8,917 bases of DNA from a bacterium. GTDB lineage: Bacteria > UBA9089 > CG2-30-40-21 > SBAY01. The DNA lies in the NCBI GenBank assembly GCA_040757115.1, contig JBFLYA010000153.1, positions 1 to 8,917 on the forward strand, in the 5' to 3' direction. This document shows positions 210-8,631 of this stretch, piece by piece. The notes beneath the pieces were generated by a model. It searched no databases and had not been told where the DNA came from. It saw only the letters and a list, made by a program, of their open reading frames with translations. Numbering within the stretch: position 1 is the first letter of the stretch; each line of letters begins with the position of its first letter. Position numbers and translations under genes: made by a program.

Positions 210-3200
210 TTATTTAATAATCCCCAGCTTGCCGATTGCCTTCTGTCCCTGCTCGTTCTTAATCAGGTAGATATAGACACCTGAGGCAACCTCGCGTGGA
301 TTTGTCCAGACCTCTTCATCTGTGCCATTGTTATGCTCTATCTCTTTGACTAATTCACCCACGATGTTGAATACCTTAATCGTGCATTGAGCGGTTAATC
401 GCTTGAAATGTAATTGTTGTCCCCTTGAGGCATAGCAGGGGTTGGGATAGACGAACACCCCGGTTAAGTCGCTGGCAGCGGTTATCTTTGATTTGCCTGC
501 GGGGGCAACAAAGGACAGATGAGTGATTGTGCCATAGACGATATTTGCATCTGCATCTCTATTTGAGTCAACTACCAATTTCCAGAGATTACCATCTGAT
601 GATAGATACAACATCAGAGTTCTTTCATCTATATTCCCTAAAACCGTCTCGTCATAGTTAAACATTATCTGCACAGGAGTGGTTAAGGTGCCGGTAATTT
701 CAGTGGCTGATGTGCCAAAGGCATTTATTTTCATTCCAATGCCAATATTCCCTGTCAGGCTTTGCAATATGGCAGAACTAACCGTTCCAATGGGTAAGAG
801 ATATACCTCTCTGGTAGAGGTGCCAAATCTTGCGGTTGCCGTTCCCCAGGTGGCGGTTAATGTGCCTGTCCAGATTCTTATCTCATCCACACATTCACCT
901 ACAACGATAGGTATTTGGGCAGTAGAAGTGCCATCAAAGGCGGTAATTGTGCCAATGCCTATTTGGGTGGCATAAAAGATGGTGCTTGTGCCAAAATGAG
1001 ATGACAAAGTGCCTATGTTGCCTGATAATGTCCAGGTAGCAAAGAGGGATTCTGTGCCTTTGGCAAAGCAGTAAAGGGAGGTTGTGCCAAAGATGGGGAT
1101 TGCCCTTTTATCTGCCTCTATTCTAATCCCTTCAGGGATAAGAAGTATTTCACAATCAGGACTTTCTGGAATAGCCTCAAGATTTCCCACATTATCAGAT
1201 GCCCTTGAGTAAAACCTATATCTATGATGATATTCCCCTGTATAGGTATAAGCACCGGTTGAAGTGGCAACATAAATCGTGGCATAAGGACTTTCATTAT
1301 CTGAACAATAAATGGTATAGTTTCTAATCCCAGAGCCATTTAGGTCATCACTACCTTGCCATTCAAGATTAAAGCTTGTAGAGGTAGAAATAGCTGGCAG
1401 AGGCTTTACATAGCTTGTTGGGATACCAGAATCAATGGTGTTAAAGACTTCTGGTGTATCCATTGGGTCATTTGTATCAAAGACAATGCTTGCTTTGTTT
1501 TTTATCTGTGTCCCTGATGATAGGTTTGATTTAGGCTTAATGGTAAAACTTACCCATCCCTCTCCATTTGGTGGGTCTGAATTTGGAGGAAGAAGGTCTG
1601 TAAGCTCATTTGTCCCTAAAGTCCTTCCCTCAAGCTTTATTTGGATTGTTCCAGTTGCACTTAATGATGCTTGAATATTAAGTTTTACTGTATCTGTCTC
1701 TGGTGTTCCACCACTCCATGTTCCAACAGAAATTATTGTTGATGTTGAGATTTGTTGGCTATCCTCTGGTAGGTTAATTATCCTGTCTCCTATGCAGATG
1801 CTATTGAATACAAGGGTTGAGGTATCAAGATTAGGAGAAAGCTGGTCGGCAATCTTTATCTCTTGAGCATATGCCGTAGCAGTAGGAAGGGCATTTTCAA
1901 AGTAGACAAGATACTGAAATGTTTGTTCGGGAGAAACCCATTTGTTCTCACCAAAGCCTGAAGGACCAGCTTTGTCATTGGGGTCGTAGGAGATAACTAC
2001 CTTTAATGATCGCTTAAATATCGCAGCCATTTTATCTGCATCCTCTATGAGGGCTTCTTCCAGAATCCTCCATAAATCAAAATTTCTACTTGGGGGCTGT
2101 ATCCAAAAAGGCTTCTCTTCTTCCGGCCACCTCTTCGGAGAACCAGAAAAAAGTGTAAAAAATTCATATACCCATGACGGCGGATTAGTGCTAAATTCCC
2201 AAGTTTGTAGTCCGGCCTTCTTGTACATATCATTCGCAAACTCCACACAATTCTTAAAGGGACCAATTGGAGGACTTAAATATGGAAACCTCTCCCCGAC
2301 CATGTTCCATGCCTCAAGAGCTATTTTCTCCCCGATATTAGGCGTCCAGTCAGGGGTATGAGCATGTCCCACATACCCTCCTTCCCCCTTTTTCCACTGC
2401 GCAAAAGGTGTAACCTTCACGAAGTCATCAGTATTGTGGTCGATTACAAATCCGTTGCCATTAGCATCCTCCACATAAATACCAACGTGACCCGTGCCGC
2501 CTGGTGGTGGAGACAAACGGAAAACCATATCTCCACGCTGGGGCTCACTATTCGCCTGAAGTGACTTAAGAATCTGTAATTCAAGAAATTCCGACTCCAA
2601 TCTATTTCTCGCTGGCGACTCTAATATACTCTGTTCCACCATAAAAATAGAGGCACTAATAGGTATATCAACCCTTTGTGTTGTTGTCAGTTTCAGAGGA
2701 AACTCATCTATGGAACCAGCGGGAACATGTGTAATAATAAACCATAAGGAAATCTTCGAGCCACTGTCCAGAGCATCTTCTGGCTTAATTTGTTCCAACG
2801 TTGGCTCAGCCAATGGAACATTAACTTCGTAATTAACATTTCGAGGTTGACGGAGTAACAAAAGTACGCTATGTGCATCCAGATTCCCAGCATTACCATA
2901 TCGAATCCAATAGGTTTGCTCTCTACCAACTTGTATCTGTTCCCTCCCTACAATCTCCACCCACAGCTTTGGCTCTCCTCCTTGCTCAATAGTAAATCCT
3001 CCTGGCAATACGAGAGTCCCCTCAAGGTTTTCTACCACAACATCCCATATCCCTGGCTCTTTATTTGTAAGGTCAAATGTTGTGGTAAGGCGATTAGGGG
3101 TATAAACTATAGATATTCCAGTAATCTCATAAACCCCTCTCTTTAATTTAGGGATAGCCCCTTCCTTAAAACCCCTTCCAATTATTTTTACTGTGACTTG

Positions 3201-6200
3201 CCCTGCATTCCCTCCCTTGCTTGGAGATATACTTAAGATAGCAGGTGGTAAAATTATTTGAAATTCATAGGCACCTATATCTACGATGCCATTTATAATC
3301 CTTGGATTACCGTCTTTGTCGGTGGTAAGCCAGCTTGGGACTGCAGAATTTGAACCTGCATCAATGCAGGGGGAGGAGGAACCAAGGCGATAATCACTCT
3401 CGGCAAATTGGGGGTCATCTGAGATGTCATTTGGTCCAGCAGAGCAACCAGAATAATTATTAAAGCCATTATCTCCATTTTCCCAGACATCGTTGTAGTC
3501 AATGGTAGGGGTGCCAGGAGGATCTCCACCATTCCGAATGCCATAGGTCCAATCATTGGATGTGCCATTTTGGACAATGATATTGTTGGTGATATTTAGG
3601 GAGGAGTTCCAGCAGAAAATGCCATCCTTGCTATTTCCCGATATTGTGTTATTGGTGATGGTGGGGGAGGAGGAGTACTCGCAGGAGATGCCATAATCGC
3701 TATTCCCCGAGATTGTGTTGTTGGTAATGGCTGGGGAGGAGGAGAAGGAGCAGGAGATGCCATGGTAGCTATTCCCCGATATGGTGTTGTTGGTGATGGC
3801 TGGGGAGGAGTACCACCCGCAGTCGATGCCATCATATCTATTCCCCGATATGATGTTATGCGTGATGGCTGGGGAGGAGTGGGTGTCGCAGGAGATGCCA
3901 CACTTGCTATTCGCCAAGATGGTGTTATGCGTGATGGTTGGGGAGGAGCCGTAGCAGGAGATGCCATTCCAGCTATTCTCCGCGATGGTGTTATTGGTAA
4001 TGGTTGGGGAGGAGGAGCAGCAGGAGATGCCACTCCCTTTATTCCCCGATATTGTGTTATTGGTGATAGCTGGGGAGGAGGAGTTTTGGCAGTAGATGCC
4101 ATACTTGCTATTCGCCAAGATGGTGTTGTTGGTGATGGTTGGGGAGGAGTTGCCGCAGTAGATGCCATCATTATTCCCTGAGATGGTGTTATGCGTGATT
4201 ACTGGTTCTGCACCATTGTTGCAGTATATTCCATAACTTGCCCCGGTTATCCAAAAGCCTGAAATAGAGACATTATCTGTAAATGTTCCATCAAAGGTTA
4301 CCCCATTATTTCCTGAAGGAGGTTTGATCGTAGGTGTTCCGTTTCCAATTAGGGCAATCCCTTTGTCGATATAGACAGGTTCTGTATAAGTTCCAGCCGT
4401 AACCGAGACCGTAGCCTCAGGAGGACAAATATCCACTCCTCTCTGGATAGTAGAGTATGGATATTGTTGCGAGCCATTCTCGATCCCTGTGGTGCTGCTT
4501 TTATCAACATAAATAGTGGTCGTCTCTGTGGAGAGCATCCTGAGTTCTATTTTGAGAATTGGGCCATCTACCCTGATCCCTCCTCTATAGGAATGATAAT
4601 AGCTGGCACAGGATGCCCTGATGGCATATGTTCCGAAAGGTAGATTTTCGATGGTATAGGTGCCATTATCACTGGTGATTGCCTCGCCTCTTGTTAGACT
4701 CAATATCTTTGCCAGAGAGATTACCTTTACCAGGGCTCCGGAAATGGGATCGCCGTTTGTATCCGTGACCGTCCCAAAGATAGAACCGGAAAAAGAAGGA
4801 GGGGTATCTTGATACTCATAGGCACCCATATCAACTATGCCATTTATAATCCTTGGATTGCCGTCTTTATCAGTCGATGTCCCGTAGATTCCGGGGGCGG
4901 TGTTTGAGCCTGCATCAATGCAGAGTGAACCAGAACCCAAATGGTAGTCACCATTGCCGATAAACTGCGGATCAAGGGATATATCGTGCAAGCCAGCAGA
5001 GCAGTGGTAGTAATTATTATTACCGCCTTGCCCATTCCGAAAGACACAGTTGTAGTCGATGATTGGGTTGCCTGAGTATTTATAAATACCATAATAACTT
5101 GTGCTTGTTGTCCCGTTTTCAGTAATAATGTTATTGGTGATGGCTGGGGAGGAGGAGTCGCAGTAGATGCCATCCTCGCTATTGCCTGAGATTGTGTTAT
5201 TGGTAATGGTTGGGGAGGAGGAGTACTCGCAGGAGATACCATCATCACTATTTCCCGATATGGTGTTGTTGGTAATGGCTGGGGAGGAGGAGAGGCAGTA
5301 GATGCCACAGCCATTCACTGAGATTGTGTTGTTGGTGATGGTTGGGAAGGAGGAGTTGGAGTAGATGCCATATCTGCTATGCCCCGCTATGGTGTTGTTG
5401 CTGATGGTTGGGGAGGAGGCGTGGCAGTAGATGCCATCCCATTTATTCCCCGCTATGGTGTTGTTGCTGATGGTTCCCGAGGAGGAGAAGCACCAGATGC
5501 CACAGTCATTCCCTGAGATTGTGTTGTTGGTGATGTTTGAGAAGGAGAAGCACCAGATGCCACAGTCATTCCCTGAGATTGTGTTGTTGGTGATGTTTGG
5601 GGAGGAAGAGTTGTCGCAGTAGATGCCATAGCTATTGCCCGATATGGTGTTGTTGGTGATGTTTGGGGAGGAGCAGGAGATGCCCCGATCGCTATTCCCC
5701 GAGATTGTGTTGTTGATGATGGTTGGGGAGGAGGAGTAGCAGCAGATGCCATGGTAGCTATTCCCCGAGATTGTGTTGTTGGTGATATTTGGGGAGGAGG
5801 AGTAGCAGTTGATGCCATAGCTATTCCCCGATATGGTATTATGGATAATGGTTGGATTTGCACCATTATGGCAACATATTCCACTGTTACTTGCTCCAGT
5901 TATGGTAAAGCCTGTAATTGTGCCGTTTGCATTATTGCTATCAAAGGTTATGATACCGTAATTGCCTAAACCAGATGAAGTGATTGTGCAAATATCTGCA
6001 CCCGCTCCAATTAAGGTTAAGGTTTTGTTAAGATAAACTGTGCCGGTGTAACCTCCAGGGGAAACAGAGACTATGCCACCAATAGGGCAGGCATTTATTC
6101 CTTGCTGGATTGCGGTATAAGTTCCAATGATTTGGCCTAAAGAATCATAGACTGTAACTGAGCCAGTTACGGTTGGGGTTCCTTGGAATTCATAGGCACC

Positions 6201-7253
6201 CATATCAACAATGCCATTTACAATCCTTGGATTACCATCTTTGTCAGTGGTAATGGTACCTATGGCTGTGTTTGAGCCAAAATCTATGCAGGGGGAATTT
6301 GATTGGAAATGAAAGTCAGTTAAGCTTATAAATTGTGGGTCAAGTGAGATGTCGTTTGGTCCAGGAGAGCAATTGCCATAATTACCTGAAGAATTATTCC
6401 AAATATCGTTGTAGTTCATCGTGGGATTGCCAGAAGCTCGGTAGATGCCATACCATCTATTATTTACAATGATATTGTTGGTGATTTGTGGCGAGGAGGA
6501 GAAGAAGTAGATGCCATACCAGCCATTCCCCGATATTGTATTGTTAGTGATGGTGGGGGAGGAGTAGTCGCAGTCGATGCCATCACAGGTATTCTCCAAT
6601 ATTGTGTTGTTGGTGATTTGTGGCGAGGGGTAGTAGTGGCAGGAGATGCCATATCTGGTATTCCCCGATATGGTATTGTTGGTGATGGTTGAGAAGGAGG
6701 AGTTGCAGAAGATGCCATAGCTATTCCATGAGATGGTGTTATTGGTGATGGCTGGGGAGGAGGAGTCGCAGTAGATGCCATAGCGATTCCCCGAGATGGT
6801 ATTATGGATAATGGTTGGGTTTGCACTATTTGTACCAAATATTCCACTGCCATATGGCCAAACTGTGCTTGTTGCCCCAGTTATGGTAAATCCTGTGATT
6901 GTTCCCTTTGCATTTGTGCCATCAAAGGTTACCGTGTTTGTATCGCCTAAGCCAGAGGCTGTAATTGTGCAAACACCTTGAGCCGCACCAATCAAAGTAA
7001 TATTTTTGTTGATATAAACCGCCTCATTGTAGGTTCCCGTTGAAACAATAACCCGATCCCCAGGATTTGCCGCATCTATTGCCAACTGGATTGTCGTATA
7101 ACTTCCTGGCACATACAAATCCACTGCCATTGCCCCCTGGGTTAAAAAACCCATCCCAAATACCACTAAAGCCAATAGCTTCTTCATCCCGTTAGACCTC
7201 TTTTTATATCCCATTAAACCCTTCATATCACAGCAAGGTCTTGTGGGATTCAT
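210..7253 (-). CDS. Giant secreted beta-helix protein with embedded permuted NlpC/P60-like domain
   Basis: About 2,347 residues from the ATG at 7253, chosen because AGGAGG lies 9 nt upstream. An internal ATG at 7187 starts the canonical signal peptide MKKLLALVVFGMGFLTQGAM (residues 23-42, cleavage after AMA at 43) and is a serious alternative start. Domains: three right-handed parallel beta-helix modules (about 44-357, 358-815 and 912-1332), each beginning with a YxxIQxxID-like cap and ending in DPQF...CIDxGSN...TDKDGNPRI...GAYE(F/Y)Q, the choice-of-anchor-Q-like signature; a carboxypeptidase-regulatory-like domain (about 823-905); IPT/TIG (about 1336-1424); a CARDB-like segment (about 1427-1530); a permuted papain-like domain (about 1573-1715; His1589 in GHVGIY, Cys1669 in NCVEFAND); a DUF11-like domain starting at YDPNDK (about 1751-1940); an FN3-like domain (about 1941-2038); Ig-like and other beta-rich segments (about 2041-2255); and a C-terminal FlgD/T9SS-type sandwich from VYPNPC to the end. 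Probably exported and surface-displayed or released. Role in adhesion, polysaccharide binding or wall hydrolysis is inferred, not shown. No partner genes lie beside it. Confidence 0.93.
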   Translation of the reverse strand: MNPTRPCCDMKGLMGYKKRSNGMKKLLALVVFGMGFLTQGAMAVDLYVPGSYTTIQLAIDAANPGDRVIVSTGTYNEAVYINKNITLIGAAQGVCTITASGLGDTNTVTFDGTNAKGTITGFTITGATSTVWPYGSGIFGTNSANPTIIHNTISGNRYGIYCDSSSPAITNNTISWNSYGIFCNSSFSTITNNTISGNTRYGISCHYYPSPQITNNTILENTCDGIDCDYSSPTITNNTISGNGWYGIYFFSSSPQITNNIIVNNRWYGIYRASGNPTMNYNDIWNNSSGNYGNCSPGPNDISLDPQFISLTDFHFQSNSPCIDFGSNTAIGTITTDKDGNPRIVNGIVDMGAYEFQGTPTVTGSVTVYDSLGQIIGTYTAIQQGINACPIGGIVSVSPGGYTGTVYLNKTLTLIGAGADICTITSSGLGNYGIITFDSNNANGTITGFTITGASNSGICCHNGANPTIIHNTISGNSYGINCYSSSPNITNNTISGNSYHGICCYSSSPTIINNTISGNSDRGISCSSPNITNNTISGNSYGIYCDNSSSPNITNNTISGNDCGIWCFSFSNITNNTISGNDCGIWCFSSSGTISNNTIAGNKWDGIYCHASSPTISNNTIAGHSRYGIYSNSSFPTITNNTISVNGCGIYCLSSSPAITNNTISGNSDDGISCEYSSSPTITNNTISGNSEDGIYCDSSSPAITNNIITENGTTSTSYYGIYKYSGNPIIDYNCVFRNGQGGNNNYYHCSAGLHDISLDPQFIGNGDYHLGSGSLCIDAGSNTAPGIYGTSTDKDGNPRIINGIVDMGAYEYQDTPPSFSGSIFGTVTDTNGDPISGALVKVISLAKILSLTRGEAITSDNGTYTIENLPFGTYAIRASCASYYHSYRGGIRVDGPILKIELRMLSTETTTIYVDKSSTTGIENGSQQYPYSTIQRGVDICPPEATVSVTAGTYTEPVYIDKGIALIGNGTPTIKPPSGNNGVTFDGTFTDNVSISGFWITGASYGIYCNNGAEPVITHNTISGNNDGIYCGNSSPTITNNTILANSKYGIYCQNSSSPAITNNTISGNKGSGISCCSSSPTITNNTIAENSWNGISCYGSSPTITHNTILANSKCGISCDTHSSPAITHNIISGNRYDGIDCGWYSSPAITNNTISGNSYHGISCSFSSSPAITNNTISGNSDYGISCEYSSSPTITNNTISGNSKDGIFCWNSSLNITNNIIVQNGTSNDWTYGIRNGGDPPGTPTIDYNDVWENGDNGFNNYSGCSAGPNDISDDPQFAESDYRLGSSSPCIDAGSNSAVPSWLTTDKDGNPRIINGIVDIGAYEFQIILPPAILSISPSKGGNAGQVTVKIIGRGFKEGAIPKLKRGVYEITGISIVYTPNRLTTTFDLTNKEPGIWDVVVENLEGTLVLPGGFTIEQGGEPKLWVEIVGREQIQVGREQTYWIRYGNAGNLDAHSVLLLLRQPRNVNYEVNVPLAEPTLEQIKPEDALDSGSKISLWFIITHVPAGSIDEFPLKLTTTQRVDIPISASIFMVEQSILESPARNRLESEFLELQILKSLQANSEPQRGDMVFRLSPPPGGTGHVGIYVEDANGNGFVIDHNTDDFVKVTPFAQWKKGEGGYVGHAHTPDWTPNIGEKIALEAWNMVGERFPYLSPPIGPFKNCVEFANDMYKKAGLQTWEFSTNPPSWVYEFFTLFSGSPKRWPEEEKPFWIQPPSRNFDLWRILEEALIEDADKMAAIFKRSLKVVISYDPNDKAGPSGFGENKWVSPEQTFQYLVYFENALPTATAYAQEIKIADQLSPNLDTSTLVFNSICIGDRIINLPEDSQQISTSTIISVGTWSGGTPETDTVKLNIQASLSATGTIQIKLEGRTLGTNELTDLLPPNSDPPNGEGWVSFTIKPKSNLSSGTQIKNKASIVFDTNDPMDTPEVFNTIDSGIPTSYVKPLPAISTSTSFNLEWQGSDDLNGSGIRNYTIYCSDNESPYATIYVATSTGAYTYTGEYHHRYRFYSRASDNVGNLEAIPESPDCEILLIPEGIRIEADKRAIPIFGTTSLYCFAKGTESLFATWTLSGNIGTLSSHFGTSTIFYATQIGIGTITAFDGTSTAQIPIVVGECVDEIRIWTGTLTATWGTATARFGTSTREVYLLPIGTVSSAILQSLTGNIGIGMKINAFGTSATEITGTLTTPVQIMFNYDETVLGNIDERTLMLYLSSDGNLWKLVVDSNRDADANIVYGTITHLSFVAPAGKSKITAASDLTGVFVYPNPCYASRGQQLHFKRLTAQCTIKVFNIVGELVKEIEHNNGTDEEVWTNPREVASGVYIYLIKNEQGQKAIGKLGIIK
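3481..4208 (-). repeat. Beta-helix repeat array 3 (10 rungs)
   Basis: Encodes residues about 1016-1258 of the giant protein: ten PbH1-type rungs, nine of them with Cys after GI(Y/S/D/F). Compared with array 2, more rungs use NNTILANS or NNTIAENS variants. The array is followed by the same DISxDPQF...GAYEFQ tail as the other two modules, so the module was duplicated as a whole and the rung number then diverged (6, 12 and 10). Confidence 0.88.
5041..5858 (-). repeat. Beta-helix repeat array 2 (12 rungs)
   Basis: Encodes residues about 466-738 of the giant protein: twelve PbH1-type rungs of mostly 20-23 residues. Ten of the twelve carry Cys after GI(N/C/S/Y/W). This is the longest of the three arrays. 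It contains the most recent-looking duplication, at 5483-5599. One header rung before the array (SGICC) also fits the Cys pattern. The last rung (NNIITENG...) is expanded and leads into the DISLDPQF closing tail. Confidence 0.88.
5483..5599 (-). repeat. Perfect 57-nt tandem duplication inside the beta-helix
   Basis: Positions 5483-5539 are identical to 5543-5599, a 60-nt (20-residue) period. Both copies encode the rung NNTISGNDCGIWCFS. All other adjacent rungs differ at several bases, so this copy is recent. It is in frame and shorter than the usual 63-69-nt unit. Confidence 0.9.
6380..6821 (-). repeat. Beta-helix repeat array 1 (6 rungs)
   Basis: This part of the giant gene encodes residues about 145-292. 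It contains six consecutive PbH1-type rungs of 21-23 residues built on the pattern NNTISGNxYGIYCxSSSPxIT. The Asn pair, Gly-Ile and Ser-Ser-Pro positions recur at each turn. Four of the six rungs end the GI(Y/F/S/D) strand with Cys; the last two have Phe and Arg, marking the transition to the closing tail. The DNA repeats with a period of roughly 63-69 nt. Confidence 0.88.
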
Positions 7254-7262
7254 CTTTTTATA

Positions 7263-7268
7263 CCTCCT
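7263..7268 (-). promoter_or_regulatory. Ribosome binding site of the giant gene
   Basis: The minus strand reads AGGAGG here, then a 9-nt spacer, then ATG at 7253. This is the strongest Shine-Dalgarno sequence near the gene. A weaker GAGG (7197-7200) sits 9 nt before the internal ATG at 7187, which begins the classical signal peptide. The open frame extends upstream to 7304, but that part overlaps a CACAG-type repeat and has no ribosome binding site, so it was excluded. Confidence 0.8.
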
Positions 7269-7281
7269 GAAAAATAGTTTT

Positions 7282-7310
7282 GAGCCACAGACACAGAAAA
7301 ACACAGAAAA
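7282..7310. repeat. CACAGA-type repeat fragment upstream of the giant gene
   Basis: GCCACAGACACAGAAAAACACAGAAAA resembles the left arm of the repeat at 7573-7649 (CACAGAGCCACAGAG...). It appears as a single arm with no partner, lying just upstream of the ribosome binding site in the 5' leader. Confidence 0.4.
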
Positions 7311-7312
7311 AG

Positions 7313-7465
7313 TAATGCCTCAGTTATCGGGTGTAAAGGGAGTAAAATTGAGTGAAATTGGAAATTAGAAATTGGGGAGAGAAGTGAAAAACTCAATTTC
7401 CAATTTCCAATTTCAGCGTTTAAGTGAATAAATAGTTATCTTCCCACCTCATAACTGAGGGATTA
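7313..7465. repeat. Palindromic MITE-like element with terminal inverted repeats
   Basis: TAATGCCTCAGTTAT (7313-7327 region) and ATAACTGAGGGATTA (7451-7465) are inverted repeats differing at one position. Nested inside, 7354-7374 (GAAATTGGAAATTAGAAATTG) and 7394-7414 (CAATTTCCAATTTCCAATTTC) form a 21-bp stem with one mismatch and a 19-nt loop. No coding frame is evident. The nested structure fits a small non-autonomous element or a long cruciform. Confidence 0.65.
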
Positions 7466-7649: not shown

Positions 7650-7672
7650 TAAATATCAGCGTCAAAAAACAA

Positions 7673-7717
7673 AAAAAGCGTTTCATTCGCTTTTAATTCA
7701 CGACTGAAACGCTTTTT
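7673..7717 (-). terminator. Strong intrinsic terminator (possibly bidirectional)
   Basis: AAAAAGCGTTTCA (7673-7685) pairs perfectly with TGAAACGCTTTTT (7705-7717): a 13-bp stem with a 19-nt loop. On the minus strand the stem is followed by T-runs interrupted by one G, ideal for ending the DUF5618 transcript. On the plus strand five T residues follow the GC part, so it may also work in that direction. Confidence 0.85.
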
Positions 7718-7725
7718 GTGATTGG

Positions 7726-7864: not shown

Positions 7865-8242
7865 TTATCCAATCTTTTCTATAAAATCTTTTGCTAATTT
7901 TAAATAATGTTTAACTCCCTGGGTATCATAAATAAGTCCTCTATAATAACCTGCTATGTGCAAGGTGTCATAAAGCATTTCAAATTCCCTCATCAACTTT
8001 CCATTATGAACAGCCAGGTATTTTTTTAATGCTTCTCTATATCCATCTACTGACTTTAGAATTTCTTTCTTCGCAACTTGCTTCTTTTCAATCAGATATT
8101 CATTTATTGCCTCTAAAATAGCCAGATAGGCTGTTCCAAATGCCTCTTGGATAGGCTTAACATCTGTATAGGTATTATCCTCTACTGGAATAGACCTCAA
8201 TATCTCCCTGGCATTATTTAAATATCTTAATGATTCTTTCAT
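7865..8242 (-). CDS. DUF5618 family protein
   Basis: 125 residues, close to the family's usual size of roughly 120-130. The N-terminal SLRYLNNAREIL, the central YTDVKPIQEAFGTAYLAIL and the LHIAGYYRGL near the C-terminus match the pattern I associate with DUF5618: a small, all-helical, probably four-helix-bundle protein of unknown function. There is no signal peptide or membrane segment, so it is cytoplasmic. It has no HEPN-type RxxxxxH motif that I can see. The start at 8242 is supported by GGGGAG 8 nt upstream and a TTGACA promoter. It is first in a short unit with the small ORF at 7726-7845, ending at the terminator at 7673-7717. Family assignment is from memory of family members; biological role is unknown. 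Confidence 0.85.
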   Translation of the reverse strand: MKESLRYLNNAREILRSIPVEDNTYTDVKPIQEAFGTAYLAILEAINEYLIEKKQVAKKEILKSVDGYREALKKYLAVHNGKLMREFEMLYDTLHIAGYYRGLIYDTQGVKHYLKLAKDFIEKIG

Positions 8243-8297: not shown

Positions 8298-8405
8298 CAA
8301 TTATTTTGTAAAAGGGTGCGTGTAAAGTTTGTTGGTAAATTTCAACCTATGAAATAGAAGAACAAAATATCCCCCAATTAGAGTGAGAAAAAGAATAAAC
8401 AGCTC
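8298..8405. other. Intergenic stretch without recognised features
   Basis: A/T-rich sequence between the DUF5618 promoter and the mini-hairpin array. I see no open frame with a ribosome binding site, no repeat arm and no RNA-gene signature here. Confidence 0.5.
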
Positions 8406-8549
8406 GCTCCTATGGAGCTAATTTGTTATGAGGGAGATAATCTTTCTACAAACATATCGCTCCTCTGGAGCTAATATGAATAAAGCTCCGTAGGAGCAAT
8501 CTGTTTGTAGTATTTCGCAAAAGCAATATGTTTGTAGCTCCGTAGGAGC
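8406..8549. repeat. Array of four GCTCC-NNN-GGAGC mini-hairpins with TGTTTGTAG motifs
   Basis: Mini-hairpins with 5-bp perfect stems lie at 8406-8418 (loop TAT), 8459-8471 (TCT), 8485-8497 (GTA) and 8537-8549 (GTA). The last two are followed by CAA/TCTGTTTGTAG-type tails. The second is preceded by the reverse complement CTACAAACATAT, so copies 2 and 3 form a larger inverted repeat (8446-8510). Loop bases vary while stems are conserved, indicating structure-level selection or repeated insertion of a REP-like unit. No transposase is present in the window. Confidence 0.8.
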
Positions 8550-8631
8550 AACCTGTTTGTAGTAGAGATTGAATATCTGTTTCTTGCATTTTATTTAAGC
8601 CTATTTCACAGGTCGATTATTTTTAGTAATG

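Follow-up and report, generated by a model that had tools for sequence, protein, structure and literature searches.

A divergent circularly permuted NlpC/P60 domain within a probable beta-helix surface protein with a type IX sorting signal

The window analyzed here, 8,917 nucleotides in length, is a whole contig of a 4.3 Mb genome assembled in 462 contigs, and most of it is filled by one minus-strand open reading frame (210-7304) with no internal stop codon. The sequence suggests the ATG at 7253 as the likely start, with AGGAGG just upstream, giving a gene at 210-7253 (-) for a protein of about 2347 amino acids; the open frame itself reaches 7304, where a GTG offers an alternative origin of numbering. 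The residue numbers of the initial annotation are 17 lower than a count from this GTG, which fits a start at ATG 7253, and they are used below (His1589 and Cys1669 correspond to H1606 and C1686 when counted from the GTG). Upstream of the gene lie two strong inverted repeats, at 7353-7415 (22 nt, 95% complementary) and 7667-7723 (23 nt, 87%, around GCGTTTCA), and a small DUF5618-family gene at 7865-8242 (-) (Pfam E 1.5e-34); the intergenic region 8397-8564 holds several palindromic GCTCC..GGAGC-type repeats resembling REP-type elements.

The encoded protein begins with a signal peptide, MKKLLALVVFGMGFLTQGAMA, read by eye, followed by a long beta-helix region (3247-7187 (-)) in which choice-of-anchor Q motifs accompany three stretches of right-handed beta-helix and a single CarboxypepD_reg domain sits between the stretches, as recognized by Pfam, TIGR03804 and NF041518; the Pfam matches comprise Beta_helix (E 5.7e-111), NosD, DUF1565 and CarboxypepD_reg. 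The initial annotation had described a carbohydrate-binding beta-helix shaft: the beta-helix, right-handed and of NosD/DUF1565 type, stands, and carbohydrate binding would be a conjecture of that annotation. Next come an IPT/TIG-like domain (2985-3245 (-); Pfam TIG 17.5 bits, E 0.004, under the cut-off of 20.9) and a domain that we call GNAGN-type (2625-2981 (-)), which looks beta-sandwich-like by eye, matched no family in the Pfam search and shares 37% identity with a second copy on contig C203 of the same genome. The papain-like domain under study occupies, with its flanks, about 2139-2561 (-), and is followed by a DPNDK/DUF7619 domain (1430-1995 (-); Pfam DUF7619 E 3.6e-18), beta-rich-looking sequence and a type IX secretion sorting domain (Por_Secre_tail; 228-452 (-); TIGR04183 E 6.7e-10, 37 bits against a cut-off of 23).

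With a C-terminal TIGR04183/PF18962 sorting domain scoring over its cut-off, the protein qualifies as a type A cargo of the type IX secretion system (T9SS), and this domain is probably the route by which it reaches the surface. The genome contains 46 matches to type IX sorting domains, so that the organism plausibly has and uses such a system; SprA, a core protein of the type IX machinery, is represented in this genome by a weak match of 23 bits against a cut-off of 27.

The initial annotation had pointed to the motif series RGDMVF, GHVGIY, VIDH and NCVEFANDMY, with a His about 80 residues before a Cys, and had read this as the order of permuted papain-fold enzymes. The translation bears this out within 2537-2223 (-), with a spacing of exactly 80 residues, and the same His-before-Cys order is present in the alignment with the YiiX family. 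RGDMVF (2520-2537 (-)) forms the first core strand, strand 12-16 of the AF2 model discussed below; GHVGIY lies at 2475-2492 (-), VIDH within 2433-2447 (-) and NCVEFANDMY at 2223-2252 (-). In an alignment with 20 YiiX-family proteins the invariant positions are G and D in the first strand, His1589 (2487-2489 (-)), Cys1669 (2247-2249 (-)) and the Glu at Cys+2; His1589 and Cys1669 are thus the predicted catalytic residues, the latter at the start of model helix 104-115, and Asp1605 (2439-2441 (-)), aligned with the Glu of the family, is the predicted third polar residue. Tyr1658 (2280-2282 (-)) is a candidate for the conserved NlpC/P60 Tyr, its GExxxY spacing being common to the C203 copy; the assignment is ambiguous, as Phe1656 occupies the YiiX Tyr column and Tyr1658 stands two residues off.

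Profile searches place the domain in the NlpC/P60 superfamily and point to a permutation. Pfam NLPC_P60 matches the isolated segment (E 7.4e-6, 26.3 bits, cut-off 23), but the match is confined to profile positions 46-91, which cover the His half, and the Cys comes after it. When the Cys segment was moved in front, CHAP scored 29.1 bits, spanning positions 8-77 of its 81-position profile, compared with no match to 18.6 bits in 13 controls carrying a shuffled Cys segment; NLPC_P60 rose to 28.6 bits, against 25.6-27.1 in the same controls. A locally built HMM of canonical NlpC/P60 proteins gave no gain on swapping (10.6 versus 9.7 +/- 0.6 in shuffles), and the swap argument therefore depends on the Pfam models and chiefly on CHAP. 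In its native order the domain scored 12.9 bits against a YiiX-family HMM, from the His to past the Cys, a value that none of 2000 hairpin-keeping shuffles reached. With an HMM of the 20 YiiX rows the domain reached 11.6 bits, a score seen in 0 of 3000 shuffles; however, a canonical NlpC/P60 protein outscores it and several come close, so this HMM alone cannot separate YiiX from the superfamily at large.

Pairwise similarity to known families is low. The alignment score is 60 against YiiX of E. coli K-12, compared with 28 +/- 5 for shuffled sequences (1 of 1000 reaching it), and 63 against a Citreicoccus relative (L114, identical to L143; 0 of 1000), and the stretch linking the two halves, VKVTPFAQWKKGEGGYV, matches VKYTPLKQWIAHGEKGKYV in YiiX and VKRTPFAQWRARG in the Citreicoccus protein. 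A profile built from the window domain and both halves of the C203 copy and run against all PDB sequences ranked HRASLS2 first (E 0.0012), then YiiX (0.093), PLA2G16, a canonical hydrolase (half match), PLAAT3 and, lower, an LRAT chimera. Alignment by hhalign to bacterial LRAT-like proteins gave E 2.9e-5 for the window domain alone and 2.4e-10 with the second copy; an HMM of five LRAT sequences fails to recover the window domain (2.9 bits) but recovers both C203 halves.

Structure prediction points the same way. AF2 run on the single sequence returned no usable model (pLDDT 36), whereas with 20 YiiX-family rows it reached pLDDT 82.1 and pTM 0.80. The good model thus depends on rows in which the fold is already present and is not independent of the YiiX-family alignment; the PLAAT family, which ranks at the top of the structural matches, is absent from that alignment. 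In the model the strands come first and are followed by two helices, the second of which begins at the Cys. Foldseek placed HRASLS3, YiiX and PLAAT3 at the top, and VIA gave Z scores of 11.0 for HRASLS2/3, 10.3 for YiiX and 9.0 for the B. cereus enzyme 3kw0; canonical NlpC/P60 structures obtained only 3-4, mostly over the first half. The initial annotation had named a predicted fold with His and Cys far apart as grounds for rejection; the placement of strands and helices in the model and its match to HRASLS argue against such a separation. With profile, alignment and model evidence taken together, we regard a permuted NlpC/P60 fold for this domain as highly probable.

Contig C203 carries a relative of the window gene (L062, 2443-4850, minus strand) that has decayed. 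Its DUF7619 and the next domain are 79% identical to those of the window, whereas its GNAGN domain and the adjoining slot are 36-37% identical. The slot is broken by stops and frame changes, reading IGAIVYWDLMGVTMHTGIYVGNGE and, in another frame, GEEIVRRARGRLGETGDYAILKDNNPFIGGKYKNCNTFVNELL, and the pieces were read apart with the frames left unmended; the motifs MHTGIYVGNGE and then KNCNTFVNELL retain the His and the Cys. Homologs lacking either residue had been proposed as a further ground for rejection, and this sole paralog found, though decayed, keeps both. The two halves score 12.5 and 13.8 bits against the LRAT HMM (shuffle maxima 4.6 and 5.8), and the second half matches Pfam LRAT at E 0.0067. 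The relative also has a near-identical signal peptide start, MKKLLALVV.., and an antitoxin-like segment (DUF7387/HicB-like, under cut-off) that runs in frame into the GNAGN domain.

At a locus from another genus (L063, G009:C122) the flanking domains match, and the slot between them lacks papain motifs and holds a stretch of helical appearance together with an AT-rich insertion. The papain domain therefore appears, as far as these sequences tell, to have been inserted into a scaffold of which versions lacking it occur as well. The AT-rich repeated insertion interrupts the slot of L063 at about 1370-1600, with KFYKILNSKF and similar peptides in several frames. TNCIGIVH, found shortly before DPNDK at a G003 locus (L064), was considered as a third copy of the Cys half and rejected, its similarity not rising above shuffles. 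Another genome of the window's own genus encodes a secreted-looking protein (L015, G001:C123, 1383-3153) that starts GTGHVGFLIVYPDGSSYVVD ... DTYDCVGLVEAAL. The His again precedes the Cys; the Peptidase_C92 match to the His half reaches only 12.9 bits, and the protein possibly contains another permuted papain-like domain.

Among known systems, the YaeF/YiiX family (PF05708, MEROPS C92; PDB 2if6 and 3kw0) shares with the window domain the His-before-Cys order, the GD..F start, the VKxTPxxQW linker, the acidic third residue, CxE at the Cys and the predicted fold; the window domain differs in being about 10 residues shorter between the first strand and the His, in having Phe in the YiiX Tyr column and in lying inside a surface protein of about 2300 residues. 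LRAT/PLAAT proteins (HRASLS; PF04970; PDB 4dpz, 4dot and 7zom) are the best structural match and share the permuted order and NCxxF at the Cys, where the window domain reads NCVEF and the LRAT motif NCEHF is absent. The native sequence does not exceed the Peptidase_C92 cut-off of 27 bits, nor does any other protein of the genome match that family, and LRAT (PF04970) scored 12.5 bits, under its cut-off of 24.3. As neither of the two named permuted families scores it above its Pfam cut-off, the domain is filed as a divergent permuted NlpC/P60 domain of the known superfamily and not as a YiiX or LRAT member; residue order, a fold predicted with the YiiX rows and aligned Cys, His and Asp all agree with this filing. 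Canonical NlpC/P60 (PF00877) and CHAP (PF05257) proteins share the core strands and the hairpin GDxVF..GHVGIY but have the Cys first, an order that the window domain does not show. Likened by published description only, the type VI effectors Tox-Act1 and TseH (PMC12994826) are likewise secreted proteins with a permuted NlpC/P60 core bearing the catalytic His and Cys; they differ in having immunity proteins and in their type VI delivery. At the threshold used, the genome yields no NlpC/P60 match other than the window domain; at E 0.001, this genome (99.87% complete) gives no match to canonical NlpC/P60, and the order-level relatives G004-G007 have one each.

Searches elsewhere recovered little of the domain. 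Short-peptide patterns did not find it in GTDB contigs or IMG/VR, phages and plasmids gave half matches at most, 19 genomes of the phylum contained no relatives, and about 370 other genomes yielded weak partial matches only; such sequence searches reach close relatives mainly. The succession of beta-helices, TIG, permuted papain domain, DUF7619 and type IX tail was likewise not found elsewhere in the data searched, and no description of it was found in open-access full-text literature, in keeping with the earlier statement that no protein of this exact layout was known. The kind of domain is already known, and it is the host architecture that was not found elsewhere in the data searched.

According to structural work on the group, permuted enzymes retain papain's Cys/His/polar arrangement but have a hydrophobic S1 pocket, and YiiX was found with a fatty acid (PMC3142127). 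The permuted NlpC/P60 effector Tox-Act1 was shown to be a phospholipase that requires its His and Cys for toxicity, and TseH also has phospholipase activity (PMC12994826, 2026). By analogy with the characterized permuted relatives (YiiX, PLAAT/HRASLS, Tox-Act1), which have lipids and acyl groups as ligands or substrates (PMC3142127, PMC12994826), an acyl-hydrolase or transferase at the surface is likelier than a peptidoglycan amidase or peptidase. The delivered amidase, peptidase or acyltransferase envisaged initially is accordingly narrowed, with acyl activity moving to the front and the peptidoglycan activities becoming the weaker guess.

We propose that the Sec signal and the type IX tail would bring the protein to the outer surface, where the beta-helix shaft may hold the domain, inserted between the GNAGN domain and DUF7619, off the cell or bind a surface. 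His1589, oriented by Asp1605, would activate Cys1669 for attack on an acyl bond, either ester or amide; the molecule attacked would most likely be a lipid or an acylated compound encountered outside the cell. By analogy, a thioester with the acyl group would form, and the acyl group would pass to water (hydrolysis) or to another acceptor (transfer). As a whole, a type IX-exported beta-helix surface protein with an inserted, divergent permuted NlpC/P60 (YiiX/LRAT-like) cysteine enzyme targeting an acyl bond is the reading we favor, with a reasonable but by no means strong degree of confidence.

A different substrate would be expected if the domain were a permuted peptidoglycan or peptide hydrolase with an amidase/endopeptidase activity like that of canonical NlpC/P60 enzymes, directed at the cell walls of neighbors. 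The His hairpin GDMVF..GHVGIY is canonical-like and NLPC_P60 is the best Pfam match, but linker and fold are those of the permuted group, whose characterized members are lipid-binding or lipid-active (PMC3142127, PMC12994826), and we hold such a hydrolase to be unlikely, if credible. That only one copy is intact, the other copy in the genome being broken, and that the phylum genomes searched contain no relatives would also suit a catalytically dead or purely binding module whose fold has been kept in a structural protein. Yet none of His, acidic third residue and Cys is missing, and even the decayed copy kept its His and Cys, making a dead module a rather unlikely explanation. Low pairwise similarity to known families and the failure of single-sequence AF2 might even suggest that GHVGIY and NCVEF are chance motifs with no common domain behind them; against the profile, shuffle and fold results and a second copy in the equivalent slot, coincidence of this kind is very improbable.

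For the favored acyl-bond enzyme, a wider and doubtful extension is that the GNAGN-DUF7619 slot is exchangeable and that surface proteins of this lineage fill it with varied modules, lipid-active permuted papain domains included, yielding type IX-displayed adhesins that would modify the membranes or lipids of bound targets. A lipid- or acyl-associated cysteine enzyme fold on a type IX-exported beta-helix surface protein is an arrangement for which we found no description; should such proteins prove active, they would represent bacterial relatives of LRAT/PLAAT working in a new setting, as acyl hydrolases or transferases displayed at the surface.
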